From positions 1 to 23,770 of IMG/VR virus record IMGVR_UViG_3300045283_000399: 23,770 nucleotides of DNA; one strand, given 5' to 3'. Below are positions 8,577-23,101 of this stretch, one piece after another. The translations under genes were made by a program, and so were the position numbers. The notes under the pieces were generated by a model. It was given only the letters and a program-made list of their open reading frames with translations. It had not been told where the DNA came from and searched no databases. Numbering within the stretch: position 1 is the stretch's first letter; the number at the start of each line of letters is the position of its first letter. This DNA is from a virus.

Positions 8577-8626
8577 GGTGCATGCGTGCGCACATCATGA
8601 CAACTGTCCTACCATAGTTCGTCACT

Positions 8627-8647
8627 CACTACCGGCGACCAGTAGTG
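8627..8647. promoter_or_regulatory. Inverted repeat, possible operator
   Basis: CACTAC, nine bases, GTAGTG: a perfect six-base dyad that ends eleven bases upstream of the -35 box at 8659. Its size and position suit a dimeric regulator of the divergent promoters. No matching regulator can be named. Confidence 0.4.
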
Positions 8648-8658
8648 TCTACTGTCGC

Positions 8659-8687
8659 TTGACGAACATACTAATCGCCGCTAGTTT
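8659..8687 (+). promoter_or_regulatory. Promoter for the structural-gene operon
   Basis: TTGACG (8659-8664), a 17-base spacer, and TAGTTT (8682-8687) match a housekeeping-type promoter with good spacing. It would give a leader of roughly 170 bases before the first gene at 8868. Confidence 0.5.
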
Positions 8688-8867
8688 CTCAGGGGAGGGT
8701 CGGTCGGCGGCCAGCGTTCCGGTCTCGCTTTTGTTCCCGCAGGTTCTGTAAAACGTAACTGCTCCGTACACGGTACACTGCCGTTTACACGACTAATTCG
8801 CAGTAGTTCTGCGCTGTGAACGCGGACTATTGCGACATAGTTGTAGAGATTTGCCAGTAAATCAAGT

Positions 8868-9194
8868 ATGCTCTCGATCGTGAGATGGGGCGGCGCGACA
8901 AACGAGGGCGACGACCTGTTGGTGGTGCTGGCGGTCGACGACAACGATCGGCTACACGTCGTCGTCGATCAGAACCATCCGGTCGTCGAGGGCCGGGACA
9001 CGAGCGGCCCGTTGCCGGGCATGCCGCCGATGCGACCGGAGGTCGGGACCATCGACTTCCTGCTGCCTGGCTACGGCGACTCCTGGGCGATCTGGACCTC
9101 CTCGACCTGGGAGGGGGAGCCGTCCGACGTCGTGGTTTGCTCGCGCATGGACGTCATCGACTGGCTCGCTGGCGCAGAAACGATCCCCGTTTAG
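8868..9194 (+). CDS. Hypothetical protein, first gene of the late operon (108 aa)
   Basis: ATG at 8868 without a clear ribosome binding site. The protein is acidic with alternating beta-type segments: DDLLVVLAVDDNDRLHVVVD, then EVGTIDFLLPGYGDSWAIW, and ends with SDVVVCSRMDVIDWLAG. It could be a small beta-rich domain. No family is recognised. It occupies the place where the terminase or capsid genes of a siphophage would be expected, but it is far too short for either and carries none of their motifs. Confidence 0.6.
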   Translation: MLSIVRWGGATNEGDDLLVVLAVDDNDRLHVVVDQNHPVVEGRDTSGPLPGMPPMRPEVGTIDFLLPGYGDSWAIWTSSTWEGEPSDVVVCSRMDVIDWLAGAETIPV

Positions 9195-9207
9195 TACGTC
9201 GGCGGGT

Positions 9208-9438
9208 ATGCTGCTCGATATGCCGATCACCACGCGTTCGTTCCGTGGTCGCCCCGAGGTCCGATCGGATGCATCGTCCGGTCGCACCAACCCGATGGGC
9301 GGCGGTCCGCTTCCCGGCAACCCGGCGCCGGACAACGGCGACGAGTCCGACGTCGACGTCGTGAACCCGGCCGTTCAGACCGCCCCGCCGGAGCTGTTCG
9401 GCGGTCAGCGGACGAATCTCGGCCGCAACACCGCCTGA
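9208..9438 (+). CDS. Small disordered protein before the neck genes (up to 76 aa)
   Basis: ATG at 9208, or ATG at 9223 giving MPITTRSFRGRPEVRS at the start. The protein is rich in Gly, Pro, Asp and Asn, lacks hydrophobic blocks and is probably disordered. It ends three bases before the gp10-like gene, so it belongs to the structural operon. It could be a remnant of a head-region gene, a small accessory virion protein, or a scaffold-like peptide. There is no motif evidence for any of these. Confidence 0.5.
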   Translation: MLLDMPITTRSFRGRPEVRSDASSGRTNPMGGGPLPGNPAPDNGDESDVDVVNPAVQTAPPELFGGQRTNLGRNTA

Positions 9439-9440
9439 CG

Positions 9441-9854
9441 ATGGCGGTCAGGGTCACCGTCGAGACGTCTGGTCTGCGTGAGATGCAGGCCAGCCTCGAC
9501 CGCGCCATCGCCGACCTGCCCCTCGCCGGCCAGGCCGAGTTGGCCGAGGGCGCCATCGCCGTGTTCGCGGCCTCGGAGGCCGTCGTGCCCCGCGACAAGG
9601 GTGGGTTGGCGGCGACCGGCCGCATCACGCCGATCGAGGGCGGTTACGAGGTCGCGTACGGCGGCGGCCCGATCTCCTACGCCGCGATCACCCACTGGGC
9701 TCAGCGAACACGTCACGGCGACAGGCGATATCCGTACACGATCCATCCGCCGGGAGAGCACGCCTGGTTGTGGAGGACCGGCGCCCGACTCGGTCCAGGC
9801 ATTCAGCGGCGCGTCATCGCGGCGGTCGAGCGAGCGGCCAGGGGGGAGCTGTGA
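9441..9854 (+). CDS. HK97 gp10-like tail/neck completion protein (137 aa)
   Basis: ATG at 9441. An N-terminal helical segment (LREMQASLDRAIADL) is followed by the family signature region: AVVPRDKGGLAATGRI (promise of the V.TG.L..S pattern), a beta hairpin EVAYGGGPISYAAITHW, and HPPGEHAWLW, ending in a helix. This order is characteristic of HK97 gp10-type proteins, which act at the head-tail interface as tail completion or stopper components. In most siphophages this gene follows the connector and adaptor genes; here it precedes them. The next gene begins with an overlapping GTG. Confidence 0.75.
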   Translation: MAVRVTVETSGLREMQASLDRAIADLPLAGQAELAEGAIAVFAASEAVVPRDKGGLAATGRITPIEGGYEVAYGGGPISYAAITHWAQRTRHGDRRYPYTIHPPGEHAWLWRTGARLGPGIQRRVIAAVERAARGEL

Positions 9855-10450
9855 GACGTGTCCTTGTGACCGCCCCTGCCGTCGAACCGCTTTCGTTGGC
9901 GGACGCCAAGTCGCATCTGCGCATCTCGGCGTCCGACACGAGCGAAGATGCGTACATCGCCAACCTCATCGTCGCTGCTCGTCAGTTCGTAGAGGCTCCC
10001 ATTGCGCCGGGGCTCGACATCGCCATCGTCACTCAGGTATGGGATCTCTTCTTCGACGAGTTCCCGTCCTCGCCGCTCGAATACATCGATCTGTCGCCGC
10101 CGCCGTTGCAGTCCGTCGTCTCGGTTCGCTATACCGACGTCGTCAATGGCCTGACCACGATCACGTTGCCGAACGCCGCGTTCATCGTGGACGGCGGCGT
10201 TGCGCGCGACGCTCGGCTGGTGGCGGCTACGGGCTGGCCGACGGCTTCCTTGCCTCGCGCCGACGGCGTCGTGGTCAGGATCAAGGTCGGGTTCGGTGAT
10301 GTGGCGGCGGCCGTCCCCGAGGCCATGGTGATCATCCTGCTCCAGTTGGTGGCGGCGATGCATCGCAACCGAGGAGACGACCCAGCCTCGTTCGTTCCGC
10401 CGGCCTTCGAGTATCTGTCCAGCGTCTTCAGGGGGATGGGCTTTGCGTAG
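9851..10450 (+). CDS. gp6-like head-tail connector (199 aa)
   Basis: GTG at 9851 overlaps the previous stop (GTGA). The N-terminus carries the connector signature PLSLADAKSHLRISASDTSEDAYIANLIVAARQFVE (positions about 14-49), in short a SLADAKxHLR helix followed by EDAYIxxLIxAAR. A central beta-rich insertion and a C-terminal helical segment (VPEAMVIILLQLVAAMHRNRG) follow. The family (HK97 gp6, phage QLRG/gp6-like) forms the ring that docks onto the portal after DNA packaging. Its presence implies a DNA-filled capsid from some source. At 199 residues it is slightly longer than the core family because of the central insertion. Confidence 0.85.
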   Translation: MRRVLVTAPAVEPLSLADAKSHLRISASDTSEDAYIANLIVAARQFVEAPIAPGLDIAIVTQVWDLFFDEFPSSPLEYIDLSPPPLQSVVSVRYTDVVNGLTTITLPNAAFIVDGGVARDARLVAATGWPTASLPRADGVVVRIKVGFGDVAAAVPEAMVIILLQLVAAMHRNRGDDPASFVPPAFEYLSSVFRGMGFA

Positions 10451-10826
10451 CGCCGTCCCACGTTTCACGTCTCACGGTTCGAGGTTCGACATCGGACGCA
10501 TGCGCGACCTCGTCACGATCCAGACCCGCGCCGGCACGCCGGACGGCCAGGGCGGCCTGACTGAGGCTTGGACGACTGTCGACCAGGTCCGCGCCAACGT
10601 CCGAGGTCACAGCGGCACCGAGACGTTTGTGGTCGGCCAGCAGACGTACTCCGTGAATTTCACGATCTCGATGCGCTGGCGGTCCGACCTGACGCCGGCC
10701 AAGCGTCTGTTGTGGCTCGACGGCGCCGTGACGCGAACGCTGGACATCGTCTCGGTTGTCAATCCCGACGGGCTCCACGTCGAGGCTCTGATCACGGCCG
10801 TAGAACACACACCGGCGGCGCCATGA
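10443..10826 (+). CDS. Head-tail adaptor, SPP1 gp16-like (127 aa)
   Basis: TTG at 10443 overlaps the connector gene; an ATG at 10500 would remove the conserved IGRMRD segment partly, so the upstream start is preferred. The family pattern is clear: IGRMRDLVTIQTR, DGQGGLTEAWTTV, VRANVRGHSGTETFVVGQQ, ISMRW, and a C-terminal beta strand with the AVEHT end. These proteins close the connector and prepare it for tail attachment. The stop overlaps an ATG of a 35-codon frame. Confidence 0.82.
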   Translation: MRSAVPRFTSHGSRFDIGRMRDLVTIQTRAGTPDGQGGLTEAWTTVDQVRANVRGHSGTETFVVGQQTYSVNFTISMRWRSDLTPAKRLLWLDGAVTRTLDIVSVVNPDGLHVEALITAVEHTPAAP

Positions 10827-10930
10827 CAACTGATAACGTCCGGCCGCTCATCGGCTATGGTACTCACACACTCAATGGCTGCCGGACGCCCGTACATTGT
10901 AGCACGCACCAGGGGAGGGCGTACAGTTGA
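10823..10930 (+). CDS. Mini-gene with Cys/His motif bridging adaptor and chaperone (35 aa)
   Basis: The ATG overlaps the adaptor stop (ATGA), and the TGA at 10928-10930 overlaps the TTG start of the chaperone gene. The translation is MTTDNVRPLIGYGTHTLNG followed by a compact CRTPVHCSTH. The Cys-Cys and His-His pairs are reminiscent of a minimal zinc knuckle. The exact overlap at both ends suggests that it is translated; whether the peptide has a function or only relays ribosomes is open. Confidence 0.5.
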   Translation: MTTDNVRPLIGYGTHTLNGCRTPVHCSTHQGRAYS

Positions 10931-11325
10931 GCTTCTTCGTCGTTCCGTCCGTCAAGCGGGTGACCCTCCCCTCCGACCCCAATGCGTGGATCGAGCTGAA
11001 ATGTGAACTCTCGGTCTCCGAACAGAAGAAGATGGAAGGCGCGCTGGTGACCACCGGCCAGCAGAGCGCCGACGGCACAACGCCCGCATTCGGGGTTGAC
11101 GCGTGGGCGTATTACCTCGCGCGCCTGTCCGCCTACGTCGTGGCCTGGAATTTCACAGACCCCGATGATCGGCCGGTGCCAGTCTCGGTCGGCACGTTGT
11201 CCGCCCTTCGAACCGAAATCGCCGAAGAGATGACGCGCCTGATCGACGAACACATCGCCGCGCAGGAAGCCGAGCGCAGAACAATCCCTTTTCCCAATCG
11301 CTCGAAACGGCGGTCGCAATCATGA
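10927..11325 (+). CDS. Tail assembly chaperone, G-type product (132 aa)
   Basis: TTG start preceded at seven bases by a strong ribosome binding site (AGGGGAGGG). The sequence fits siphophage tail chaperones: an N-terminal beta strand region (VKRVTLPSDPNAWIELKCEL), a central helix with AYYLARLSAYVVAW, the NFTDPDDRPVPVSVGTLSAL block, and IAEEMTRLIDEHIAAQEAE. A consensus slippery heptamer lies ten codons before the stop. In lambda-like phages the G and GT products hold the tape measure protein during tail assembly. The gene is normally between tail tube and tape measure genes; here it lies before the tail terminator. Confidence 0.75.
   Translation: MSFFVVPSVKRVTLPSDPNAWIELKCELSVSEQKKMEGALVTTGQQSADGTTPAFGVDAWAYYLARLSAYVVAWNFTDPDDRPVPVSVGTLSALRTEIAEEMTRLIDEHIAAQEAERRTIPFPNRSKRRSQS
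11286..11292 (+). promoter_or_regulatory. -1 frameshift slippery site of the tail chaperone
   Basis: CCCTTTT in the correct phase (C CCT TTT), matching X XXY YYZ. Slipping back one base moves from the frame of the 10927 gene to the frame that is open to 11444 and encodes a typical GT-like C-terminus. The expected fusion is 172 residues. Confidence 0.75.
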
Positions 11326-11444
11326 GGGTGATGCGCTGGGATTGGCAGCAGTACAACTCGACTCCGGTGTTCGTCATCGACGAGATTATCCGCCAACTCA
11401 ACAATGAGTCCGAGGACTCGGCGTCGGCGGAGGGCTGGGAATGA
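11292..11444 (+). CDS. Tail assembly chaperone T extension, made by -1 frameshift (50 codons)
   Basis: After the slip the frame reads SQSLETAVAIMRVMRWDWQQ and goes on with YNSTPVFVIDEIIRQLNNE, ending at the TGA at 11442-11444. The W.W.QY..TP..V.DEI...L pattern is the recurrent signature of the second chaperone part in actinophages. An ATG at 11322 overlapping the first stop (ATGA) could also start a 40-residue free form. The end overlaps the ATG of the terminator gene. The product is the frameshifted long chaperone that contacts the tape measure. Confidence 0.75.
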   Translation, partial: SQSLETAVAIMRVMRWDWQQYNSTPVFVIDEIIRQLNNESEDSASAEGWE

Positions 11445-11926
11445 CCCTCAACGCGTCGACCCTCGCATTGACCGTTACGCCGGAGGCCCCAACGATGACT
11501 GACGGCTCGCGGCGGACCGCGATTGGCGCCGTTCAGGCCGCCGTCTACGCGCACCTCGTCGCGGACGTCGCGCTGGCCGACCTCGCTCCGGTCCTCGACT
11601 TCGTGCCCGAGGGGACGGCGTTTCCTTACGTCGAACTGAGCGAGTTTGTCGAGCTGCCGGACTCGACATTGGGAACCCAGGGGCGGTCGGTGCTGGTCAC
11701 GGTGTTTGCCTGGTCGCAGCAGCCGGGGTTCCTGTTGCTCGAACGGATCATCGACAACCTCATGCGGTTGCTGGACGAGGACCAGATCGCGGACGTCGCG
11801 GGGTCCGGTTGGACGGTGTTCGACAATGAGGTCGTTCGCTCTGAGGTCGTTCGCTTGCCAGACGGCGTGACGAGACAAGCGGCCGTCCAAGTTCGTGTCA
11901 GCGCTGCCAGGGTGGACCCGGGCTGA
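11441..11926 (+). CDS. Tail terminator, DUF3168-like (161 aa)
   Basis: The ATG at 11441 overlaps the chaperone stop and has GGAGGG eight bases upstream; an internal ATG at 11495 (MTDGSRRTAIGAVQAAVYAHL) may be the family's normal start. The core matches DUF3168: AVQAAVYAHLVADVALADL, a VLDFVPEGTAFPYVELSEF beta block, TLGTQGRSVLVTVFAWSQQPG, the helix LLERIIDNLMRLLDED, then a final sheet. Proteins of this family cap the growing tail tube and join tail to neck. The extra N-terminal 18 residues are unusual. The stop overlaps the portal gene start. Confidence 0.75.
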   Translation: MTLNASTLALTVTPEAPTMTDGSRRTAIGAVQAAVYAHLVADVALADLAPVLDFVPEGTAFPYVELSEFVELPDSTLGTQGRSVLVTVFAWSQQPGFLLLERIIDNLMRLLDEDQIADVAGSGWTVFDNEVVRSEVVRLPDGVTRQAAVQVRVSAARVDPG

Positions 11927-13422
11927 TGTCTCTTTGGGGTCGCCTGACTGGCGCCGAGGCTCGACGTCAACTTGATGAGCTGCGAACAGAGCGTGACGGC
12001 CTGATTGAGATGCGCAGCATTGATAGCTTGCCGTGGAACACCGGCAGTGACGTCATTTCCTCGCGGACCCCGACCTCGACTCAGGCCACTCGGCTGAGCA
12101 CCATCTACGCCGCGATCGCCTTGGTCGCCCGCAACATCTCTACCCTCCCCCTGCACGGGTTCCGCGACACCGACGCCGACGGCCTGGTTCGTCTGCGTCG
12201 GCTACCGTCCTTGTTCGCCCATCCCTCGATCCACGGCGACCTGGTTGACTGGCTGTTCGCGTGCCTCACGTCATTGTTGACGGACGGAAACGCCTACGGG
12301 CTCATCACGGCCCGCGACGGGTATTCCTACCCCACCAACATTGAGTGGTTGCACCCTGAACAGGTCATGGTCATCGACCAGAACTTGTGGGGAAGGGGTT
12401 CGTACTTCGACCCCATCATCTACTGGCGCGGTCGCGAGATGAATCGCGAGGACATCGTCCATATTCCGTACTTCAGCGTCCCGTTTCGATACAAGGGCCT
12501 GTCGCCGCTCGGTGCGCTGGCCAGCCCCATCGACACCGGCTTGGCGGCGCGTGTGTTCGAGGGCGACTGGTACAAGTCGGGCGGCCTGCCGCCCTCCACG
12601 TTCAAGAACTCGACGCAAAAGGTCAGCGATGTCGAGTCGGAGAAGATTCGTGATCGACTGGTCGTATCGATCCGCGCTCACAAACCGCTGGTGTACGGCG
12701 CCGATTGGGAGTTCAACCCGATCCTGATCTCGCCCAAGGACTCGATGATCGCCGAGGCGCGACAGATGTCCGCCAACGACATCGCGGTCGTCTATGGCAT
12801 TCATCCCCCGGAGCGGATCGGCGGGCAGACCAAGACCGCGCAGACCTACGTGAACATCGAACACGATCAGATCATGTTGGTCCAGGAGACGCTGTTGCCC
12901 TTGGTGCACAAGCTGGAGTCGGTCTTCTACGACCTGTTGCCCGACCCGCAGCGGGTCATCTTTGACCTCGACTCACGTATTCGCCCTGACGCCAAGTCGC
13001 GCTGGGAGGTCCATCAGATCCGGCGAGAGATCGGGGCCTCCAACATCGACGAGATCCGCGACATGGAGCATCAGCCGCGCCTGCCCAACAAGCGGGGCCA
13101 GGACTACGATCCGCTCACCGTGCGCAAGGAGCTGATTCGGGCGTCGGCCGCAACGACTGGCGATCCCAACCAGCCTGGATTCCAGACCGAGCCACCGCCG
13201 GGTCCGCCGCAGCCGACCGTCAAGCCTGAGCCCGCGCCGGTCGCGTCGTCGAACGGCAACGGCCGCTCGCACCACCCGGACCCGATCAGGCTGCCGTCAT
13301 TCGACCCGCCGCTGACGCCGATCGAAACTCGGCTGGCCGAGCTGTACCTGCGGGCGTCGACCGACGAAGAGAGGATGGCGGCGCTGGACGCGATCGAGCG
13401 CGGCCGGCTGGAGTCGAACTAA
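11926..13422 (+). CDS. Portal protein, HK97 type (498 aa)
   Basis: The ATG overlaps the terminator stop (TGATG). The sequence follows the HK97-portal layout: ATRLSTIYAAIALVARNIST (clip/wing entry helix), LPLHGFRDTD, a WLFACLTSLLTDGNAYGLI helix, the WLHPEQVMV strand, EDIVHIPYF, GLSPLGALASPIDTGLAA, the long stem helix around DSMIAEARQMSANDIAVVYGIHPPERIG, and VQETLLPLVHKLESVFYDLL. The C-terminal ~100 residues are Pro-rich and disordered. The portal is the dodecameric DNA gate of the capsid vertex and normally follows the terminase gene. Here it is placed between tail terminator and tail tube genes, with no terminase, protease or capsid gene anywhere in the unit. Length is normal for the family. 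Confidence 0.88.
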   Translation: MSLWGRLTGAEARRQLDELRTERDGLIEMRSIDSLPWNTGSDVISSRTPTSTQATRLSTIYAAIALVARNISTLPLHGFRDTDADGLVRLRRLPSLFAHPSIHGDLVDWLFACLTSLLTDGNAYGLITARDGYSYPTNIEWLHPEQVMVIDQNLWGRGSYFDPIIYWRGREMNREDIVHIPYFSVPFRYKGLSPLGALASPIDTGLAARVFEGDWYKSGGLPPSTFKNSTQKVSDVESEKIRDRLVVSIRAHKPLVYGADWEFNPILISPKDSMIAEARQMSANDIAVVYGIHPPERIGGQTKTAQTYVNIEHDQIMLVQETLLPLVHKLESVFYDLLPDPQRVIFDLDSRIRPDAKSRWEVHQIRREIGASNIDEIRDMEHQPRLPNKRGQDYDPLTVRKELIRASAATTGDPNQPGFQTEPPPGPPQPTVKPEPAPVASSNGNGRSHHPDPIRLPSFDPPLTPIETRLAELYLRASTDEERMAALDAIERGRLESN

Positions 13423-13606
13423 CTCGTGGTAGGCTGAAGGCCAGAGTTCGCGGCTTCGGCCGGGTCCCCTCCGGAGTGCTGGCAAGAGCGTTCCAGCAGG
13501 CTCCGTTGCAAGGGGCGGTCTGAGCGGTGGGCGTGCCTCTCTGGTCTATGCCGGATCGAGTGGGCGGCATCCCTCGCGGTCCATGCCAGGCCAGAGGGGC
13601 ACCCGG
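13423..13606. other. Highly structured spacer after the portal gene
   Basis: Several nested inverted repeats occur: CGGC-TTCG-GCCG at 13451-13462, TGCTGG/CCAGCA at 13477-13498, ATGCCG/CGGCAT at 13548-13570, and an enclosing GTGCCTCTCTGG/CCAGAGGGGCAC (13533-13544 with 13591-13602, one G-U pair). This suggests a folded RNA or a DNA structure. On the minus strand an open frame of 63 codons (13610-13419), coupled by ATGA to the gene at 13765, covers the same stretch. Its Arg/His/Ser-rich translation does not look like a folded protein. Confidence 0.45.
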
Positions 13607-13765
13607 TCATTCGGTATTCAGAGGAGTCGAGGAATCGTGGCCGTACAGCTCGGCCGTCAGCGCTCGGAGGTCTGGGACGTAGCCGTGCTTCTTCGCCTTG
13701 GCGACCGACTCTTCGGAGATCGGCTGCCCACAGCCACACTGGCAGATCGGATGTTCGGTTTCCAT
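13607..13765 (-). CDS. Small CxCGCG protein on the opposite strand (52 aa)
   Basis: ATG at 13765. The translation METEHPICQCGCGQPISEES continues with VAKAKKHGYVPDLRALTAEL. CQCGCGQ is the type of short cysteine cluster found in small actinophage proteins with one knuckle, and the following helix and GYVPD segment look protein-like. It is the only minus-strand gene inside the structural operon, inserted between the portal and the tail tube genes. It may be a moron acquired together with the structured spacer. No clear promoter or ribosome binding site is visible, so confidence is moderate. Confidence 0.5.
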   Translation of the reverse strand: METEHPICQCGCGQPISEESVAKAKKHGYVPDLRALTAELYGHDSSTPLNTE

Positions 13766-13806
13766 CCCGTATACATCAGCACGTTTGAACTCGTGCCAGG
13801 AGGTGT

Positions 13807-14193
13807 GTGATCGCTCGCATCGCAGGCCGGAACTCACTAGTCTACGCCGGCTCCGGCATTCTGTCGAACTCGGCGGACTGGACCATCGACACGACCGCGG
13901 CGTCCATGGATGTCAGCCAGCTCGGCGACGACTGGGTGCAAACCCTGCGTGGGCAGCGCTCGGGTTCGGGAACCATCACGGGACCCGTGGACACGTCGTC
14001 CACGTCGCCCTGGGACCTCGCCAACGCGAACGCGGACTCATCGGGGCCGATCTTCATCTACCCCCAGAAAACGGTGATGGGCTCGTACTACTACATGAAC
14101 GCGTGGTTCGAGTGCAACGTCACCGGGGGAGTGACGACCCCGGTCCGTTTCTCCATGAAGTTCACGTCGGACGGCCCGATCTCGACGCACTAG
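13807..14193 (+). CDS. Major tail tube protein (128 aa)
   Basis: GTG at 13807. The N-terminus, ARIAGRNSLVYAG, the motif SADWTIDTTAASMDVSQLGDDW (about 21-42), and a C-terminal sheet (YYYMNAWFECNVTGG, then VRFSMKFTSDG) match short tail tube proteins with the pattern W.ldi..d..D.t..gd.W. It forms the hexameric rings of the tail tube. The size is at the short end for siphophages. It is placed two genes ahead of the tape measure, as expected apart from the missing chaperone. Confidence 0.72.
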   Translation: MIARIAGRNSLVYAGSGILSNSADWTIDTTAASMDVSQLGDDWVQTLRGQRSGSGTITGPVDTSSTSPWDLANANADSSGPIFIYPQKTVMGSYYYMNAWFECNVTGGVTTPVRFSMKFTSDGPISTH

Positions 14194-14206
14194 GAGCTGT
14201 GCCGAA

Positions 14207-14617
14207 ATGAAGGTACAGCGCCACCTCGACTACACACGGACGGACGCGGAACGGTCGGCGAAGACGGCGTCGGAGCGCCGCAAGCTGGCCGTGTACCGTG
14301 CGATGTTCGCGCGATCATCCGGCGAGGCCCGCGAGCAGATCGCAGCTCACGTCCTCGCCCATTACGGCGTCGAACTGCGCCACGACGCCAACATGGAGGG
14401 TCTGGCGCCCGAACCCACGCCCGAGGACCCGCTCACAGCGTTCGGCGTGCCGCCGGAGCGTGTCGAGGATCGCGGCGTCTGGCTGGCGGAACAGATTCGT
14501 TCGCGCGGCGGCAATGTGAAGACGGAGCTGGTCCGCGGCAAGAGGGTCATCGTTCTCACGGAAGCGCAGCAGCGGTTGGCCGACATCGAGGCCCGAAGGG
14601 ACGGCCCCGATGGATGA
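14207..14617 (+). CDS. Unknown structural-operon protein A (136 aa)
   Basis: ATG at 14207 with AGGAG upstream. Mostly charged helix: DAERSAKTASERRKLAVYRAM, REQIAAHVLAHYGVE, then a Pro/acidic linker (PEPTPEDP) and a C-terminal helical part with KTELVRGKRVIVLTEAQQRL. There is no recognised domain. It overlaps the next gene by eight bases. The pair occupies the position of tail chaperones, but the second frame lies at +1 and not -1 relative to the first, and neither protein carries the chaperone signature, which is found at 10927. A tail assembly or minor virion role is inferred from position only. Confidence 0.65.
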   Translation: MKVQRHLDYTRTDAERSAKTASERRKLAVYRAMFARSSGEAREQIAAHVLAHYGVELRHDANMEGLAPEPTPEDPLTAFGVPPERVEDRGVWLAEQIRSRGGNVKTELVRGKRVIVLTEAQQRLADIEARRDGPDG

Positions 14618-14972
14618 CATCCTCACCGGTATCGACGCGCTGGCCGCGCTGGAGCGCCGTCGGCTCAATGAACCGACGGCGGGTTGGGACGACGACGAGC
14701 TGGAGGCCAATGCCGACGTCGAAGCGACCGCACAACTGCGAGACCTCGTTGACGAGCGCGCCCGCGAACTGCCTCGACAGTATGCCGAGCGGCTGGCCCA
14801 GGAGGAGTTCGAGCGTTTGGCGTGGGATGCAAAGAGGCGCCAGTTCGTTGAGCGGACGCTCATGACGCCGGCCGAGATCGCGGAGTTCGAGCGTCGTCGT
14901 CGGATCGCGGCCGACCATCAGTCAGCGCTGGCGGCCGAGGCACTGGAGTCCATTTTGCGGGGGAGGGGATGA
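14610..14972 (+). CDS. Unknown structural-operon protein B, helical (120 aa)
   Basis: ATG at 14610 inside the end of the previous gene. The protein is almost entirely charged helix with heptad-like leucines and many Arg/Glu (ATAQLRDLVDERARELPRQY, then EEFERLAWDAKRRQFVERTL), so a coiled coil or an extended helical scaffold is likely. It has no cysteine and no glycine-rich part. It ends in ATGA overlapping a 13-codon frame that leads into the tape measure gene. It may bind the tape measure or act as an assembly factor; there is no family evidence. Confidence 0.65.
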   Translation: MDDILTGIDALAALERRRLNEPTAGWDDDELEANADVEATAQLRDLVDERARELPRQYAERLAQEEFERLAWDAKRRQFVERTLMTPAEIAEFERRRRIAADHQSALAAEALESILRGRG

Positions 14973-15010
14973 CGACCGGCGGCAGCTCTCCGTCCTTGGT
15001 TCTCGCCTGA
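14969..15010 (+). other. 13-codon frame linking protein B to the tape measure gene
   Basis: ATG at 14969 overlaps the previous stop (ATGA), and its own TGA overlaps the tape measure ATG (TGATG). The peptide would be MTTGGSSPSLVLA. The tape measure gene has no ribosome binding site, so re-initiation through this frame would explain its translation. Confidence 0.4.
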
Positions 15011-17289
15011 TGGCCGACGAAACTGTCAGTTTGAAGTTCCGAATCTCCACAGAGGGAGTCGCGTCGGTCGTCACGGCCAAGGTCGCGATCGACTCGTTGA
15101 CGGATTCGAATGGGAAGCTGACAGCCTCTGGCGCGGAGGTCGCGAGGGTGACCGGCATCTCGGCCGCGTCGCTGGAGAAGCACCTGATCGCGGCGCGCAA
15201 TACCGCGGTCGAGGTTGATAAGCTGGGCGTCGCCCTGGGCAAGGCTGGCGGTGAGTTCGCCCATCTGTCCTCGATCATCAACGGACCCGGGACCGGCGGC
15301 GGTTCCGGCGGTGGCGGTCAGGGCGGCTTCCTGACGCAGTTCCAGCGCAACTTCCGCGGTTTGCAGTCGAACATCCCGGTGCTGGGAGGGCTGATCACCG
15401 GACTGGGCAACGTGATGGCGGGAATCCCGGCCCCGGCGTTCGTGCCCGCCCTGGCGGCGCTGGGCGTGGCGGCGCTGGTTCTGGCTGCGCCGATGGCGGT
15501 CTTGATCTCGAATCTGGCGGCGGTGGCCACGGTTCTCGGCGGGATGATCATCGCGCTGTCGTCCGCTGTGGTCCTGCTTGGCGCGTTGGCCGGCGGCGCT
15601 CTGGCGGCGGCCGGCGCGTTGGCGTTGTTCCTGGGACCCATCGCGCTGATCGGCGTGCTGCTCGGCACGATGCAGCAGTCGCAGGCCGACGCCGCGAAGT
15701 CGGCGGCCGACGGTCTCGCCACGGCCCAAGAGGCGTACGACCGAGCGGCCGCATCGGTCGTCAAGGCTCAGCAGGCAACCGTGGCGGCCTCCAACTCGGG
15801 CGCCATCGCGACCGCTCAGCAGGCCCTTGATTCGGCCAACGCCCAGGTCGCGGCGGCCCGCGCTGCGTTGGCCGCGAATCCAGACTCGGTTGGCCTCCAG
15901 GGCGGCCTGGCGACGGTGTTGGCCGAACAGCAGAAAGCAACCAACGCCCTCACGACCGCTCAACAGGCCGGCGCCAGCTCGGCAACCACGCTGAAGGATG
16001 CCCAGGGCGCATTGGCCATCGCCGCGCGCAAGCTGGCCGACGCGCACGACGCCGTCGCTCAGACGAACCAAGCGCTGGCGTCCGGCAACGGATCGTTCAA
16101 GCAACTGACCGACGGCATCGAGCGCATGAAGGAGACGCTGGTCAAGGCCGCGACGCCGGCCCTCGAAGAGATCAACGCGGCATTGGTCAAGCTACTGCCG
16201 GAGGTTACAGAACTCGGTCTGGGCGTCGTTCGGTGGTTCGGCGACGTCATCGGACCCACCCTCAAAGCCATGACGACTCCCGGCGGGCCGTTCGATACCC
16301 TGGTCACTTTTCTGAAGAGAGCCGGCGGTTCGTACGCGGATTTCGTGACTGAGATGCTGAAGCGGACGCCGCAGTTGTCGGACATCTTTCGCCAGTTCAC
16401 CGTTCGAGTCGGCGACGCGTTCGACGGCCTGCTGCACAATCTCATCCGATTGGTCGACTGGTTCATCCGCAATCAGCCCGAGTTGTCGAAGATTGGCAAC
16501 CAGATCGCGGCCGCGTTGGGTGGCGGCGTCCAGCATGCCGCCGACTCGATCAGCAATTTCGTCACCTGGCTGAGCGCGAACTGGCCCAAGATCGGACCGG
16601 TGTTCGAACGGACGATCACCATCGTCGGTCAGTGGCTGGACAAGTTCCTGAAGTGGTTCGAGGATCTGGCGACCTGGTTGGCCGATCCCGCCAACTTCGA
16701 CCGGGCGGTCAGGCAGGCCACGGATTTCATGAACGGATTGGGCAACGCGCTCAACGGCGCCGCGTCCGCCATCAACGCGTTCATGACGGTCGTCAATGCA
16801 CCGGCGTTCGTGGAAGTGACCAAGAGATTGGGCGACCTCGCCAACATCTGGCATCAACTTCCGGCCGCTTCTCAGTTTGGTCTGGTTGGTTCGGCGGTGG
16901 AAGCCTACAACACCATCGCCGCGAGGGATGCCGCTTACGCTGATGCGCAGAGGTCAGGTTTGAAGGTAGCCGATCGACCCGCCTACCAGACCGGCGGCGT
17001 TGTCAGCGGTCCCCCCGGCCCCGATCGCGTCCTCACGCGCCTCACGGCTGGCGAGGGGGTCCTGACGACGGCGGCCATGTCCCGGATCGGCGCCGGCGGC
17101 CTGGCGGCTCTCAATAACGGTGGCGGGCTGGGCGGTAATGCGTCGGGCCTGCTGGCCTCGATCCTGGAGTCGCTGCGGACGCTGGAGGCCAAAAGCCTGG
17201 GCAGCGTCGCGATAACGAGCAACCAGCCGGTGGATCACCGCAAAGTTGTAAATGCCATTAACTTTTTTAGTTCGGCGAAGCGCATCTAG
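15010..17289 (+). CDS. Tape measure protein (759 aa)
   Basis: ATG at 15010, no ribosome binding site. The domain order is typical: an N-terminal region with VSLKFRISTEG, a Gly-rich linker (GTGGGSGGGGQGG, about 95-108), a hydrophobic block of about 100 residues with several possible membrane spans (about 135-230), and Ala/Gln-rich coiled coils (TAQQALDSANAQVAAARAAL). Amphipathic helices with regularly spaced Trp follow, then the common C-terminal segment GGVVSGPPGPDRVLTRLTAGEGVL. Tape measure proteins set tail length and are ejected during infection. At about 1.5 angstrom per residue the tail would be near 110 nm. The protein is shorter than in many actinophages, in keeping with a compact virion. 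Confidence 0.9.
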   Translation: MADETVSLKFRISTEGVASVVTAKVAIDSLTDSNGKLTASGAEVARVTGISAASLEKHLIAARNTAVEVDKLGVALGKAGGEFAHLSSIINGPGTGGGSGGGGQGGFLTQFQRNFRGLQSNIPVLGGLITGLGNVMAGIPAPAFVPALAALGVAALVLAAPMAVLISNLAAVATVLGGMIIALSSAVVLLGALAGGALAAAGALALFLGPIALIGVLLGTMQQSQADAAKSAADGLATAQEAYDRAAASVVKAQQATVAASNSGAIATAQQALDSANAQVAAARAALAANPDSVGLQGGLATVLAEQQKATNALTTAQQAGASSATTLKDAQGALAIAARKLADAHDAVAQTNQALASGNGSFKQLTDGIERMKETLVKAATPALEEINAALVKLLPEVTELGLGVVRWFGDVIGPTLKAMTTPGGPFDTLVTFLKRAGGSYADFVTEMLKRTPQLSDIFRQFTVRVGDAFDGLLHNLIRLVDWFIRNQPELSKIGNQIAAALGGGVQHAADSISNFVTWLSANWPKIGPVFERTITIVGQWLDKFLKWFEDLATWLADPANFDRAVRQATDFMNGLGNALNGAASAINAFMTVVNAPAFVEVTKRLGDLANIWHQLPAASQFGLVGSAVEAYNTIAARDAAYADAQRSGLKVADRPAYQTGGVVSGPPGPDRVLTRLTAGEGVLTTAAMSRIGAGGLAALNNGGGLGGNASGLLASILESLRTLEAKSLGSVAITSNQPVDHRKVVNAINFFSSAKRI

Positions 17290-17291
17290 CC

Positions 17292-17351
17292 ATGTTCGAG
17301 ATCAATACGACGGCGACGCTCCGAATCCAGCCAGCCATGACTTATATATGA
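17292..17351 (+). other. 19-codon frame linking tape measure and distal tail genes
   Basis: ATG two bases after the tape measure stop (MFEINTTATLRIQPAMTYI). Its TGA overlaps the ATG of the next gene (ATGA). Either a translational relay or the original N-terminus of the distal tail protein separated by a frameshift; the frames differ by one base. Confidence 0.4.
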
Positions 17352-18103
17352 GCTTCATACTGAGTGCGGGCAGCTATAACGGCGTGTCCTGGGGACATCC
17401 AGGAGATGCCCTGAGGGTGCAGAGTCAATCGGGTTTTGGCGACCTGCCGTCCATACGCGAGCACACGACCCCCCGTTCGGCGGCCGACGGGAATTGGCGG
17501 GCTCGACGGTTCACGGACGCGCTCACGCTGCAACTCGGCTTGGCCATCGTGCCGGTCTCCGGCTACACCGTGGATGCGTCTTGTCGTTTGCTGGAGGCCG
17601 CCACCGGCGTCCAGCGGTCGATCTCCCTCCCCCTTCTTTTCGACGCCGGCTCAAAACGAGCAAACGTGTTCGTCGCGCAACGTCTGATCGACCGTCAGCG
17701 CGACAATCTCGCCAAGGCGACGTTGGCGTTCGAGACGGTCGAGCCGGCGGTGTACGCAAACACCGAGACCGTGATTGCGTCCGTGTTCGGCGGCATCGTG
17801 TCGGCGACCAATTCGGGCAACGCCTGGGCGTATCCCGTGATCACGGCGGTCGGTCCAGTAACCGGACCCTGCTCGTTCTCCGACGCTCACGGCAACGTCG
17901 TGACTGTGAATACGTCGCTGGGCGGTGGCGATACGCTGGTGGTCGACTTCTTCGCGTTGTCTTGCCGGCTGAACGGCATCCTGGTCAGCGAAACGTCGGC
18001 GTCGGACTGGTGGATTTTGCAACCGGGCGCACAGAACATCTCGGCGTTTTGCGGTTCGGGGACGGGAACTGTGACGTACCGGTTCCGATCGACGTGGGCG
18101 TGA
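17348..18103 (+). CDS. Distal tail-like protein (251 aa)
   Basis: ATG at 17348 chosen because it begins MSFILSAGSYNGVSWGHPGD, a usual style for distal tail proteins, and because the upstream part of the open frame overlaps the tape measure gene. The first half includes RRFTDALTLQLGLAIVPVSG; the second half is beta-rich (VYANTETVIASVFGGIVSAT, then NAWAYPVITAVGPVTGPCSF and DTLVVDFFALSCRLNG). This layout of a ring-forming N-domain plus a galectin-like C-domain fits Dit/SPP1 gp19.1-like proteins that form the hub at the tail tip. Assignment is by position and general pattern, without a sharp motif. Confidence 0.62.
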   Translation: MSFILSAGSYNGVSWGHPGDALRVQSQSGFGDLPSIREHTTPRSAADGNWRARRFTDALTLQLGLAIVPVSGYTVDASCRLLEAATGVQRSISLPLLFDAGSKRANVFVAQRLIDRQRDNLAKATLAFETVEPAVYANTETVIASVFGGIVSATNSGNAWAYPVITAVGPVTGPCSFSDAHGNVVTVNTSLGGGDTLVVDFFALSCRLNGILVSETSASDWWILQPGAQNISAFCGSGTGTVTYRFRSTWA

Positions 18104-18113
18104 TGGGCGTGAC

Positions 18114-20555
18114 GTGAGCTACGTCAGCGAAGTCCTCGCCGATTCCCCCTTCAGTTTTTACCGTTTCGCAGACTTCACGGACTCATCCGGCAACGGCAAC
18201 GGCACTAGCGTGTTGTCGTCCGGCCCCACGGTCGGTCACACGTCGATCGTGACCGGCGACTCGGGGGCGGGGTCCGGCATGGCGCAGTTCAACGGATCGG
18301 GCTATCTGGCCTGGCCATTCCCGGTCTCGACCGATCTGACAATCGAGTACTGGATCATTGCGTCGGCGTGCGACGAAACCGTCGGCGGAAACTACCCTTC
18401 TTTTCGTGTGGGTAACACTTCGTCGGTCGGACCATGCACACCGTTCGCCGATCAGGGAACCATCTTTGTCGGTTCGTCGGTCAACGTCTCCGACGGCGGC
18501 CTGCACCACGTCGTCTATGTGTGGACCGGCGCCACGATTGAGATATTCGTTGATGGCGTTTCGACTGGTACCGCCACCCGTGTTCGGCCGGTCGGCGGCG
18601 GTGGTTCACTGGGAGGGTACGGCGGCGGCCCCTGGTACACCGGCCAGATGTCGGACATGGCCGTGTACGCGACCGCCTTGTCGTCGGCGCGGATTGGAGT
18701 CCATTACACCGCCGGCACGTCAGCGGCCCCGACCAACGTAGTTCGAACCGCCGATGACACCATGGTGGCGATCATCGATACGGCCACTCTGGCCGGCACG
18801 ACCGTTCATCTCACGCGGACCACCGCCGACACCATGGCGGCGATCACGGACGCCGTGACAGGCGCCACGGGTCGGTTCCTGAACGCCGCCACGCTCGACG
18901 TTCTTATGACGCCGCAGCGTCCGGCCTGGTTCCCGCAGCCTGCCGCCGGACAGGACCCCCATGTCAATGTCGAGTTCAAGTCGTTTGGTCTGTTCGACCG
19001 GACGTTTTACGGCCGTTTGCAAATCGACGGCGCGACGTGGACGGAAACGTACAACACGAAGCCTGGCGACCTGCGCGGTACGGTCGCCATCACGCCAGAC
19101 GTTCGACTGGACGCGCTGGCGGTCAAAAGGCTGTTGGTCGTCGTGGTCGACGACCAACCACGGGCCGCGTACGTTCTGCAGAAGGTCGAATACGACTCAG
19201 TCACCGCCACCGCGACGATCTTCGCCGAGGATGTGTGGACGGCTTTTTACGACAAGTACCCGATCCTGGACGCGTTCACGGTCACGGCGGTCGACGAGAT
19301 CACGGGCCTGTTGTTCGAGCTTTACGAGTACGTTTCCGAGCTGCCGGACTCTGACATTGGTCTGACGTTGGACCTGGCGGATTCGGGCATCCCGCGGACA
19401 GTCGCCATCAATCCTGAAGACTCAACTCAGACGTTGGGCGCCGTGGTCGGCGCGCATATCGTCTCGATCGAGGACGGGGCGCAGATCCGGATCGACGTCA
19501 TCTACACGGATGCGACCGAGACGCCGACGCTGGTATTGCGAGCGCGCCATCCGACCCTGGGTCGACGATACGAGACGACGAACCCGGACCTTTTGCCGGT
19601 GTTCAAGTACCTGCCGACCGGCGGCAACATCGTCTCCGTGAAGTGGCAGAACGACGGCACGACGTACGCGACCAAGGTCTACGGCGTAACGAGCAAGGGC
19701 ATATTCGCGACGTCGGTCAACGCCGGCCTGCGGGCGTCCGGCCTGCCGGAGCAGGTGTTCACGATGACACGACAGGCGCCGTTGCCACAGGACACGATGC
19801 AGGCCCGGACGGACGCGGCGCTGGCGGCGCGAGGGACGGCGTTCGGGATCTCGACCGTCGTCGTGACGATGGCCTCGGTGACGCAGCAGAACCTCGTGCC
19901 GGGTGACGACGCCATCTTCGTGCTGCAAGACGCCCTGTGGTTCACAGACAAGCTCGTGGCGCACTATCGGATCACCGAGATTGCGTTTGACGCCGACGCC
20001 GAGACCGCTGAGTTGAGCCTCGATCCGTCGGCGACTGGCGACCTGGCCGAAGAGTCGGTTCCGGCGTCGACGAATCCGCCGCCGCCACTCCCGCCCAGGA
20101 CAGACGTCCCCTGGACGCCGTTCGTGATCGGTCAGGAGCTGCTGTCGTTTGGTCATCTGGCGACCGCCCACGGGGGAGGCGGGACAGAGACGACGGCCAT
20201 GCTGCCATTCGTGGTCACGACCGGCAATCCGCTCGTCCGCGTCGTGGTCCAGGGTCAGTGCGATATCTACGCTGGGTTTCAGGTCACGATCATCGGAACC
20301 ATCTCCGGCGGCGTGTTCACATCGGAACCGTTCTTCGTATCGCCGGGTGGCAACCCCGAGGCCGGCGTGGCGCTCGACGTGCCGATCTTCGATCATTTGA
20401 CAGGCAAGGGCGGTGGCGGGGACTGGGTGCCGGCGGCCGGGGTTTTGCCGGCGGACAACTACTATGTCCGGCTCGACGTCACGGCCGGGGCGCCTGGGAA
20501 CTACGACGTGTTCGTGTATCTGTTCGGGTCGTCGGCCGAATTGACGGTTTCATGA
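18114..20555 (+). CDS. Tail-tip baseplate protein with N-terminal LamG domain (813 aa)
   Basis: GTG at 18114 overlapping a 4-codon frame (18103-18117) that itself overlaps the previous stop. Residues about 1-205 form a LamG/concanavalin-like jelly roll: VLADSPFSFYRFADFTDSSG, MAQFNGSGYLAWP, LTIEYWI, VSDGGLHHVVYVW, IEIFVDGVSTGTA, and MSDMAVYATALSSARIGVHY. The central region, about 260-640, resembles the siphovirus Gp37-like tail protein: FYGRLQIDGATWTETYNTKPG, KRLLVVVVDDQPRAAYVLQK, VWTAFYDKYPILDAF, and AFGISTVVVTMASVTQQNLVPG. The C-terminal 150 residues after a Pro-rich linker are beta-rich. The fusion would put a carbohydrate-binding module directly on the baseplate, so this is a likely host-recognition protein. 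Confidence 0.72.
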   Translation: MSYVSEVLADSPFSFYRFADFTDSSGNGNGTSVLSSGPTVGHTSIVTGDSGAGSGMAQFNGSGYLAWPFPVSTDLTIEYWIIASACDETVGGNYPSFRVGNTSSVGPCTPFADQGTIFVGSSVNVSDGGLHHVVYVWTGATIEIFVDGVSTGTATRVRPVGGGGSLGGYGGGPWYTGQMSDMAVYATALSSARIGVHYTAGTSAAPTNVVRTADDTMVAIIDTATLAGTTVHLTRTTADTMAAITDAVTGATGRFLNAATLDVLMTPQRPAWFPQPAAGQDPHVNVEFKSFGLFDRTFYGRLQIDGATWTETYNTKPGDLRGTVAITPDVRLDALAVKRLLVVVVDDQPRAAYVLQKVEYDSVTATATIFAEDVWTAFYDKYPILDAFTVTAVDEITGLLFELYEYVSELPDSDIGLTLDLADSGIPRTVAINPEDSTQTLGAVVGAHIVSIEDGAQIRIDVIYTDATETPTLVLRARHPTLGRRYETTNPDLLPVFKYLPTGGNIVSVKWQNDGTTYATKVYGVTSKGIFATSVNAGLRASGLPEQVFTMTRQAPLPQDTMQARTDAALAARGTAFGISTVVVTMASVTQQNLVPGDDAIFVLQDALWFTDKLVAHYRITEIAFDADAETAELSLDPSATGDLAEESVPASTNPPPPLPPRTDVPWTPFVIGQELLSFGHLATAHGGGGTETTAMLPFVVTTGNPLVRVVVQGQCDIYAGFQVTIIGTISGGVFTSEPFFVSPGGNPEAGVALDVPIFDHLTGKGGGGDWVPAAGVLPADNYYVRLDVTAGAPGNYDVFVYLFGSSAELTVS

Positions 20556-20571
20556 TATAAGAGGTTTGACG

Positions 20572-21009
20572 ATGACCGATTTCACGTTCCCGAGATTTCG
20601 TCAGCAGATCGTCGCCGGCAACGACATCTGGACGGCGGTCTCAGTCAGAGCGCTGCTCGTCGATTCCTCGTCGGGTTGGACGCCGTCGGGGTCGGAGGAT
20701 ACTCTGGCCGACGCCTTGTCTGGTGGCCTGGTCGAAATTTCGCCCTCAGGGTACGTCGCTGGCGGCGCGGCGCTGGGGTCGAAGTCTGTAGCGCGGGCCG
20801 ACCCCGCCGTTCAACTGAAGGCCGGGCCGGTGACCTGGACCGCGTTGGCAGCGGGTCCGACCGTGATCGCGGTCGTGTTGTACGTCCACACGGGGACGAA
20901 CTCGACATCAGACCTGATTGCCTACCTGACGTCGCCGGGTTCGCTGGCGCTGACGGGTGCCAACTGTGTGTTGAGCTGGCCGGGCAACGTCGTCGTGAGT
21001 CTGACGTGA
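20572..21009 (+). CDS. Small tail-associated protein (145 aa)
   Basis: ATG at 20572, 17 bases after the previous stop. The sequence has VSVRALLVDSSSGWTPS, DTLADALSGGLVEISPSGYV, and WTALAAGPTVIAVVLYVHTG, ending in a hydrophobic beta-rich part. Proteins of about 140 residues with this pattern commonly follow the tail-fibre gene in siphophages and are thought to be minor virion components. I cannot name a family. The gene is joined to the next by TGATG. Confidence 0.6.
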   Translation: MTDFTFPRFRQQIVAGNDIWTAVSVRALLVDSSSGWTPSGSEDTLADALSGGLVEISPSGYVAGGAALGSKSVARADPAVQLKAGPVTWTALAAGPTVIAVVLYVHTGTNSTSDLIAYLTSPGSLALTGANCVLSWPGNVVVSLT

Positions 21010-21200
21010 TGGCGATCGTCGTGCCGCCCTGGGTTCAACCGCGACCCGACGATCCGATCGGGATGTGTCGCCGTCATCTGCGTCGATACGTCGACCCCGA
21101 CGGGTGTCCTCACTGTCCCCCGCCGGTCGTCGTACCGGCCCCTCCCCCGCCGGTCGTCGACGCCAAACGGCTGCCGCGGCGCAAGGGCCGTTGGCGCTGA
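21009..21200 (+). CDS. Small zinc-knuckle, Pro-rich protein (63 aa)
   Basis: The ATG overlaps the upstream stop. The N-terminal half has C-x2-H at CRRH and CPHC eleven residues further on (RRHLRRYVDPDGCPHC), a plausible single zinc site. The C-terminal half is Pro/Val-rich (PPPVVVPAPPPPVVD) and ends in a basic RRKGRWR. No family is recognised. It is the penultimate gene of the late operon, so it might be a virion-associated or regulatory peptide. Confidence 0.6.
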   Translation: MAIVVPPWVQPRPDDPIGMCRRHLRRYVDPDGCPHCPPPVVVPAPPPPVVDAKRLPRRKGRWR

Positions 21201-21201
21201 C

Positions 21202-21393
21202 GTGGCGACACATACGCATCGCCACGCCGCCGACGTCGTCCAGGTGAGGGATTCCACGGGTCGAGGTCCGACGGCGGTCCTACGAAACGCATATGACGTC
21301 GGGGGGAGGGTCCAGGACTACCTCGGCCCTTTGCTCGGCCGACTGGTCTGGGTCGGGCAGCCGTTCACCGCGTGGCGGGCACGTCGCCGTTGA
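21202..21393 (+). CDS. Hypothetical protein at the end of the late operon (63 aa)
   Basis: GTG at 21202, one base after the previous stop. The translation is His-rich at the start (VATHTHRHAADVVQVRDSTG) and basic at the end (WRARRR). It has no hydrophobic span, so it is not a holin. Its last 29 bases overlap the remnant of the minus-strand gene interrupted by the transposon. It might be a chance frame. Confidence 0.4.
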   Translation: MATHTHRHAADVVQVRDSTGRGPTAVLRNAYDVGGRVQDYLGPLLGRLVWVGQPFTAWRARRR

Positions 21394-21427: not shown

Positions 21428-21600
21428 TTGACATCCACTCGGCCGTGAACGGCCGAGATTCCGCTACCGACAGACATTCTGCCCTCGCCGTATTCCTGCT
21501 TCACGGCCCGCTGCCGAACGAGGTCCGGTCTTACGTCTGGGCTCCACAAGCGTTTTAGGTCTCTCGCCTGCCCAGCGGCGACCTTCGTTCCTGATATTGA
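21428..21600 (-). ncRNA. Probable TnpB guide RNA (omega RNA), scaffold part
   Basis: In this family the guide RNA covers the end of tnpB and the right end, and its guide is the DNA just beyond the element. Here the hairpin at 21438-21457 (CTCGGCCG, loop TGAA, CGGCCGAG) lies at the expected place. The 5' limit is not visible and is given only roughly. The guide would begin at base 21427 of the minus strand, TACCTGGAGGCTGGCG. Confidence 0.5.
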
Positions 21601-22669
21601 CGGCGGCGTTGCGGTCGCGATCGTGTTTCGTCCCGCAGCCCTCGCACGTCCAGGTTCGGACATTGAGCGGCTTGGGGCCATCGTTTCGGCCACAGACCGA
21701 ACAGAGTTGACTGGACGGGAAGAAGCGATCAATCTTGACAACTGTCCGACGATGTCTCACCGCCTTCTCTTCGATCAGCCGAACCAGTATCGACCAACCG
21801 GCATCGTAGATTGATCGCGCCAGACGCAACCGTCCCATCCCGGCGACGTTCAGATCCTCGACATAGACCGCTTGGTTTTCGCGGACCAGTCGAAGGGCTA
21901 GCTTGTGGTGTGTGTCGAGTCGCGACTCACGAACCTTGCGGTGTATGACCGCGACCCGCCTGACGGCCTTGCGTCGGTTGGCCGAGCCCTTGACCTTGCG
22001 ACTGACGGATCGCTGTGACCGCCTCAACGCTCTCAGCTTGCGGCGCAGGAATCGAGGGTTCTCGACCTCTGTGCCGTCCGACAACGTCGCCAGCCTGGAT
22101 AGGCCGAGGTCTACGCCGACGTCTGAATCGATGACCGACCAGGGCTCGTCCGTGACCTCGACGACGAATGACGCATAGTACCGTCCATCCGCTTCCCGGA
22201 TGATCGAGACGCCGGACGGCACAGACGGCAGTGGTCGTGACCATCGCAGCTCGACGTCTCCGACCTTGGCGATTCGGATGCCGGCCGACGTAACCGCGAA
22301 GCCGTTCCTGCTCAGCCGGAACGACTGATGATCCTTGCGCCTCTTGTACTTCGGCCGTCCGAGTCGCCGGCCGGAACGCCTACCCGAGAGCGAGTCCCAC
22401 CAGTTGCGGTAGGCGATACGGGCATCGTTGCATGCCTGCACCAGCGCCACCGACGAGACCTCGGCCAGCCAAGGTCGGCCGTCTTCGCGATTATCGATAA
22501 TCGCTCGGTGTTGAACCTCGAAGTCGTTCAGCTTCTCACCGTCCCGATAGGCCGTCTCCCGGACCGCGAGCGCCTGATTGAAGACAACCCGGGCACAGCC
22601 GAACGTTCGGACCAGCATCCGGATCTGGCCCGGCGTCGGGTAGGCGCGGTATCGGTAGCGGACGATCAC
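21464..22669 (-). CDS. tnpB: TnpB RNA-guided nuclease (401 aa)
   Basis: GTG at 22669 (a GTG at 22675 is an in-frame alternative); the frame remains open further upstream, but that part overlaps tnpA. The N-terminus YRYRAYPTPGQ and CARVVFNQAL are typical. Catalytic RuvC residues are present: Asp187 in VGVDLGLS, Glu271 in VYVEDLN, and the Asp pair 350/352 in HDRDRNAAVNI. The zinc ribbon is C323-x2-C326 and C342-x2-C345. Length is normal for the family. With its guide RNA the protein cuts DNA next to a short target-adjacent motif, which helps the element persist after excision. A C-terminal tail of about 40 basic residues follows the last motif, and part of the guide RNA overlaps it. The first 42 bases of the conserved N-terminus are duplicated at 911-952. 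Confidence 0.92.
   Translation of the reverse strand: MIVRYRYRAYPTPGQIRMLVRTFGCARVVFNQALAVRETAYRDGEKLNDFEVQHRAIIDNREDGRPWLAEVSSVALVQACNDARIAYRNWWDSLSGRRSGRRLGRPKYKRRKDHQSFRLSRNGFAVTSAGIRIAKVGDVELRWSRPLPSVPSGVSIIREADGRYYASFVVEVTDEPWSVIDSDVGVDLGLSRLATLSDGTEVENPRFLRRKLRALRRSQRSVSRKVKGSANRRKAVRRVAVIHRKVRESRLDTHHKLALRLVRENQAVYVEDLNVAGMGRLRLARSIYDAGWSILVRLIEEKAVRHRRTVVKIDRFFPSSQLCSVCGRNDGPKPLNVRTWTCEGCGTKHDRDRNAAVNIRNEGRRWAGERPKTLVEPRRKTGPRSAAGREAGIRRGQNVCR
22626..22667 (-). repeat. 42-bp repeat, copy in tnpB
   Basis: Identical to 911-952. In this copy it is the start of tnpB and so the probable source; the other copy has no flanking similarity. Confidence 0.85.
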
Positions 22670-22676
22670 GCCCACG

Positions 22677-22684
22677 AGTATACT
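22677..22684. promoter_or_regulatory. Palindromic -10 element shared by tnpA and tnpB
   Basis: AGTATACT contains TATACT on each strand. On the plus strand +1 falls on 22691, the first base of the tnpA GTG. On the minus strand +1 falls at about 22670, one base before the tnpB GTG at 22669. Neither side has a good -35, so transcription is expected to be weak and leaderless. Confidence 0.5.
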
Positions 22685-22690
22685 TGGTCT

Positions 22691-23101
22691 GTGCCCGAAA
22701 ATGGTGAACTTCGACACGGAAGATCCTGCGTTTTTGCCCTTCACGTTCATCTGGTCTTCGTGACCAAGTACCGTCGTCACGTCCTGAACGAGGTCCACCT
22801 GGACGCGCTCCGAGGGATATTTGAGGCCATCTGCTTCGATTTCGGCGCTCGGCTGGTCGAGATGAACGGCGAGGACGATCATGTCCATCTTCTGGCTGAG
22901 TACCCGCCGACCGTCCAATTGTCCAAATTGGTTAATTCGCTCAAGGGCGTATCCAGCCGGCGACTGCGCCAGGCATATTCGATCAGGACGCATCGCGAGC
23001 ACCTGTGGTCGCCGTCCTATTTCGCCTCATCGTGCGGTGGTGCTCCACTGGCAATCATCCGCCGGTACGTGGAGCAACAGCGGATTGCGAGCCGAAGCTA
23101 A
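22691..23101 (+). CDS. tnpA: TnpA, Y1 HUH transposase (136 aa)
   Basis: GTG at 22691 coincides with the predicted transcription start. The protein has the normal family length and layout: FALHVHLVFVTKYRR near the N-terminus, the HUH motif DHVHLL with His64 and His66, SKLVNSLKGVSSRRLR, LWSPSYFASSCGGAPL, and the catalytic tyrosine Tyr126 in RRYVEQQ. This matches the positions known for IS608 TnpA (His64, His66, Tyr127). It excises and inserts the element as single-stranded DNA, recognising the hairpins at both ends. It is divergent from tnpB and shares a palindromic -10 with it. No sign of decay. Confidence 0.92.
   Translation: MPENGELRHGRSCVFALHVHLVFVTKYRRHVLNEVHLDALRGIFEAICFDFGARLVEMNGEDDHVHLLAEYPPTVQLSKLVNSLKGVSSRRLRQAYSIRTHREHLWSPSYFASSCGGAPLAIIRRYVEQQRIASRS

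Follow-up and report, generated by a model that had tools for sequence, protein, structure and literature searches.

The window analysed here is the whole of IMG/VR record IMGVR_UViG_3300045283_000399, a stretch of 23,770 bases, and the element that it represents is known from this one sequence. The two ends of the record share a 191-nt direct repeat, mismatched at two of its positions (127 and 129), giving a circle of 23,579 bp, about 87% of which is accounted for by called ORFs. Circularity is based on this one terminal overlap. The repeat sits within a Zn-ribbon-like ORF that is intact when joined over the ends, with stop/start overlaps to the ORF on each side, in keeping with the closed replicon proposed in an earlier note on this DNA. 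A single codon (GTT, Val; ATC, Ile) accounts for both mismatches, making strain variation likelier than sequencing error, and a circular population with strain variation appears to be the simplest reading of the record ends. Composition is uniform, with a GC3 of about 0.8 in portal, tail and early genes.

Table 1. Features of the element in window coordinates. Percentages "to 95-kb phage" are protein identities to the relative IMGVR_UViG_3300047509_000088.
Feature	Position	Strand	Evidence and remarks
Zn-ribbon-like junction ORF, 5' part	1..207	-	continues at 23579-23451; joined ORF intact, coupled on both sides
186-aa early protein, no convincing family	207..767	-	profile search
Four small early ORFs	1001-1225, 1225-1449, 1446-1745, 1777-1968	-	tightly packed, GC3 about 0.8
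PrimPol-type primase with DUF927 helicase (replicase)	3048..5828	+	primase profile E 5.5e-55
Iteron-like repeats GATTGTCCC, inverted copies on either side	5836..6036	+	repeat analysis
HNH endonuclease	6371..6760	+	phrog_144, E 1.7e-7
PD-(D/E)XK nuclease relic, 33 aa	6908..7006	+	PF20472 E 1.7e-9, profile positions 51-82 of 145
DUF3631 AAA-type ATPase	6925..8295	-	profile E 1e-10; start at 8295 inferred
Low-GC (0.52) intergenic region ahead of late genes	8577..8867	.	composition
First late gene, no family	8868..9194	+	ORF call, profile scan
Small Pro-rich late ORF, no family	9208..9438	+	ORF call
Ne1, HK97 gp10-like neck protein	9441..9854	+	phrog_5 E 4e-4; 30% to 95-kb phage
Ad1, head-tail adaptor, gp6-like	9851..10450	+	phrog_442 E 1.5e-20; 39% to 95-kb phage
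Hc1, head closure protein	10443..10826	+	PF05521 E 9.5e-18; 43% to 95-kb phage
132-aa protein	10927..11325	+	28%, E 2e-17, to 95-kb phage
Tc1, tail terminator (tail completion gp17)	11441..11926	+	PF11367 E 1e-15; about 49% to 95-kb phage
HK97-type portal	11926..13422	+	Pfam E 3e-49; 56% to 95-kb phage
Gap at relatives' protease and MCP site	13423..13806	.	384 nt between portal and tube genes
Major tail (tube) protein	13807..14193	+	profile weak, orthology clear: 51% to 95-kb phage
Two ORFs ahead of tape measure gene	14207..14972	+	position
Tape measure protein, 759 aa	15010..17289	+	35%, E 1e-88, to 95-kb phage
Dit, distal tail protein	17252..18103	+	PHROG E 1.8e-24; SPP1_Dit 5e-9; 45% to 95-kb phage
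Baseplate/Tal-like protein with LamG	18114..20555	+	PF13385 (LamG 5.6e-11); 35%, E 5e-100, to 95-kb phage
Tail-associated protein, phrog_644	20566..21009	+	E 3.7e-22; mycobacteriophage matches
TnpB of IS200/IS605 element	21464..22670	-	profile; 50-59% to actinomycete TnpB
Y1 TnpA of IS200/IS605 element	22691..23101	+	PF01797 E 1e-38
ORF without family, coupled to junction ORF	23146..23454	-	ORF call
Junction ORF, 3' part	23451..23579	-	joined across ends

The element has its own replication module, consisting of the primase-helicase and the iteron-like repeats. The helicase half of the replicase resembles Streptomyces and Rhodococcus plasmid proteins, and the profiles agree with the assignments made previously for this gene and for the DUF3631 ATPase. 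Just past the primase gene, GATTGTCCC is present in 3.4 exact copies (5900-5930), and the repeat region as a whole is a candidate replication origin. The PD-(D/E)XK nuclease relic is truncated on both sides, and the DUF3631 gene runs across it in antisense with an extended C-terminus, so that the site near 7010 reads as a recombination scar between the two; relic and scar indicate past gene loss. The low-GC region ahead of the late genes is probably regulatory, and a search of it for a sigma-70 consensus gave no match. Structure predictions run without an alignment for two proteins, the 186-aa early protein among them, returned pLDDT values of 51 and 43, too low to be informative. A minus-strand segment (6170-6290, near 6210) that looks like the T-arm and acceptor end of a tRNA was evaluated as an attachment site and rejected, since neither Rfam nor ARAGORN recognised it and the 396 genomes searched from the phylum contain no match.

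The late genes encode a portal, a neck and a full tail, as the earlier note had read them, and the profile matches to the portal, Ad1, Hc1, Dit and LamG confirm that reading. The portal start overlaps the Tc1 stop by 4 nt (ATGA). The 132-aa protein is possibly a tail assembly chaperone, its ortholog in the 95-kb phage directly preceding the tape measure gene, and the two ORFs ahead of the element's own tape measure gene are in what is probably the tail chaperone position. No retained structural gene is broken, and lengths are close to those of the orthologs with two exceptions, the tape measure protein (759 versus 1021 aa) and the baseplate protein, which is without an N-terminal repeat. A small antisense ORF (13607-13837) partly fills the gap between the portal and tube genes.

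Between the tail genes and the end of the record lies a passenger IS200/IS605 element (21464-23101), in which a Y1 TnpA adjoins the TnpB; the TnpB had been listed before and is indeed present, whereas the TnpA had been missed. An exact 42-nt copy of the TnpB coding start (22626-22667) occurs in intergenic sequence at 911-952, far from the IS element. The Dit and phrog_644 proteins resemble actinophage proteins, and these resemblances, together with the plasmid-like helicase half and the TnpB identity, suggest that the host is probably an actinomycete.

Head and packaging genes were sought in 145 ORFs of at least 62 aa and in 95 intergenic stop-to-stop fragments, compared with PHROGs and Pfam, and the main proteins were additionally scanned singly against profiles. 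For the ORFs, no terminase, capsid or protease family is found among the Pfam matches (complete at E 0.1) or the best 25 of 62 PHROG families; for the intergenic fragments, whose match lists are complete, none is found either. TerS, TerL, protease and MCP of the 95-kb phage, compared directly with the element, gave best E values of 0.05 (TerS) and at least 0.4 (the others), and the gap downstream of the portal holds no MCP, protease or TerL relic. As a control, proteins from 38 distant portal loci yielded about 40 with MCP matches and at least 31 with TerL matches, counted by single profile families, indicating that the method detects such genes where they are present. The largest late protein without a family assignment has at most 136 aa, which argues against a hidden capsid. 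The absence of capsid, protease and terminase claimed in the earlier note is thus borne out, and the search of translated frames against terminase and capsid profiles that it had proposed gave no such family among the matches listed. The element therefore has neither the HK97-fold MCP nor the TerL of an autonomous tailed phage (Caudoviricetes), and without MCP, protease, TerS and TerL it is, like a satellite, devoid of genes essential for its own virion. The profile scans likewise revealed no integrase, a gene common although not universal among phage satellites, and no lysis gene, as had been stated, nor was a capsid-redirecting or capsid-remodelling gene recognised.

F-type tailocins consist of a tail module and have neither portal nor head-tail connectors. 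This class was rejected for the element because portal, Ad1 and Hc1 are present.

Single-protein scans of IMG/VR (portal, primase, baseplate, DUF3631) and a scan of GTDB genomes with the portal found no close relative, an initial portal alignment recovered distant portals only, and conservation in an Ad1 alignment was too low for use as a scan query. Relatives were reached by a plasmid search followed by a two-sequence portal alignment as query, which recovered 80 loci at 31-56% identity. The best of these, IMGVR_UViG_3300047509_000088 (95,370 bp), has orthologs of all ten structural genes of the element (10/10), with identities running from 56% for the portal to 28% for the 132-aa protein (Table 1), and the similarities indicate common ancestry of all ten with those of a large, head-encoding phage. 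The phage is about four times larger, its neck genes stand in another order, and around its portal it has the genes that the element does not, in the order TerS-TerL-portal-protease-MCP-tube (profile E values of 9e-44, 2e-162, 3e-39 and 4e-69 for TerS, TerL, protease and MCP). Orthologs of the primase-helicase and the DUF3631 ATPase were sought in the phage and none was found. Judged by these comparisons, the element is a plasmid-like replicon joined to a portal, neck and tail that come from a lineage of large phages. The ratio of 95.4 to 23.58 (4.04) would fit a four-copy concatemer; it was set aside as evidence because no terminal repeat is seen in the 95-kb record, which is possibly incomplete.

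Among the 80 portal relatives, protease and MCP are found in all 58 loci whose downstream sequence exceeds 3.5 kb, and a TerL match in 61 of the 63 loci whose upstream sequence exceeds 1.8 kb; the 95-kb phage is one of the two exceptions, its TerL being more divergent and certain by profile. As a side observation, an actinomycete prophage fragment has capsid, portal, protease and terminase in that order along transcription, which differs from the usual order. Where relatives have TerS and TerL, the element has its tail terminator, and where they have protease and MCP, it has the tube gene after 384 nt. Because the missing blocks lie on either side of a portal that was kept, neither one contiguous deletion nor the dropping of one assembly segment can account for them, and at least two events are needed.

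This pattern bears on two alternatives. The circle could be an assembly artefact, in which a larger true genome carries the head genes elsewhere and a two-copy 191-nt repeat falsely closed the circle. The two mismatches in the terminal repeat and a relative's genome of at least 95 kb are compatible with such an error, but it is quite improbable given that the ORF restored by joining the ends is unbroken and coupled on either side, that a dropped contiguous segment cannot take genes from both sides of the portal, and that Tc1 and portal genes meet in a clean overlap of 4 nt within DNA of uniform composition. Alternatively, the element may be a phage-plasmid whose head and packaging genes were lost a short time ago and which is maintained as a plasmid, its tail genes being intact only because the loss is so young. 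The plasmid-like replicase, the nuclease relic and scar near 7010, which would fit decay too, and the lack of a recognised lysis gene or integrase all accord with this, as does the existence of complete Streptomyces phage-plasmids with related portals. One of these, NZ_CP108372 of Streptomyces sp. NBC_01335 (34.5 kb), is like the element a circular actinomycete replicon with a primase/polymerase gene; its portal is 39% identical and is its only match to the element, and it differs in being a complete phage with integrase, TerL, protease and MCP. Decay would nevertheless require at least two losses that took TerS/TerL and protease/MCP precisely and left the portal between them, the lost genes left no relic, the structural genes are all unbroken, and the gene order is compacted, as the overlap of Tc1 stop and portal start shows. 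On balance this explanation is considered unlikely.

A further alternative is a divided genome, in which the virus would have a second, obligate replicon for its head and packaging genes. In favour of this, the genes are cleanly divided by function, yet no tailed phage precedent was found in the open literature, and a scan with the GATTGTCCC repeat as marker of a partner replicon returned four unrelated viral contigs, none with genes common to the element, so that this arrangement appears highly improbable. Of these contigs, one has the repeats beside a primase-like ORF and another within a long ORF.

The explanation that we favour, with modest confidence, is that the element is satellite-like, having its own portal, neck and tail and using the capsid and terminase of a related helper. 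Such an element would copy itself with its own primase-helicase in an actinomycete and, upon infection by or induction of a related tailed phage, would make portal, neck and a long non-contractile tail. The helper would supply capsid shell, protease and terminase, its terminase would pack element DNA through the element's portal into the helper capsid, and the element's own tail would attach after packaging. Here we infer the helper dependence, the assembly of the head on the element's portal and the packaging route. Since no capsid-remodelling gene is visible, packing of concatemers into full-size helper heads is possible. The earlier note had proposed a satellite of this tail-bringing kind; the gene content and the loss on both sides of the portal support that proposal, whereas the borrowing of capsid and motor from a helper remains something that we infer.

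Known satellites divide the virion differently. Capsid-forming satellites encode MCP and terminase and borrow tails (PMC10690885, where they are defined), in agreement with the earlier description of them as encoding heads. The cf-PICIs and the Streptomyces satellites MulchRoom and MiniFlayer resemble the element in making part of the virion and in having portal and connectors, but theirs is the part with MCP and terminase, and MiniFlayer has short fibres, whereas the element brings the tail and is without MCP and terminase (PMC10690885). Of the features that mark a cf-PICI, the element thus encodes portal and connectors; it has neither MCP and protease nor TerS and TerL, and it carries tail genes. 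PICMI satellites rely on complete helper particles and package concatemers (PMC10803314); like the element they have no capsid-remodelling gene, and the element would share their dependence on helper heads. For the Charybdis elements, a preprint speculates that tail parts of their own might be combined with pirated capsids, but these 4.6-kb elements, some of them archaeal, have no portal, terminase or protease, and their tail-like genes are few (PMC12324425). In the open-access full-text literature, no described case of a satellite with its own portal, neck and full tail was found.

We therefore put forward, tentatively and with somewhat less than even confidence, a class of satellites that mirrors the capsid-forming ones, its members having their own portal, neck and tail and taking only capsid shell and motor from a related phage, perhaps with several genome copies per helper head. 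Satellites in the cited literature borrow whole particles or tails, and borrowing of head and motor by an element with its own tail would differ from both. If such a class exists, its members would set their own host range independently of the helper, portal, neck and tail would be heritable as a unit apart from the shell, and the compatibility of portal and capsid between viruses would become directly testable.
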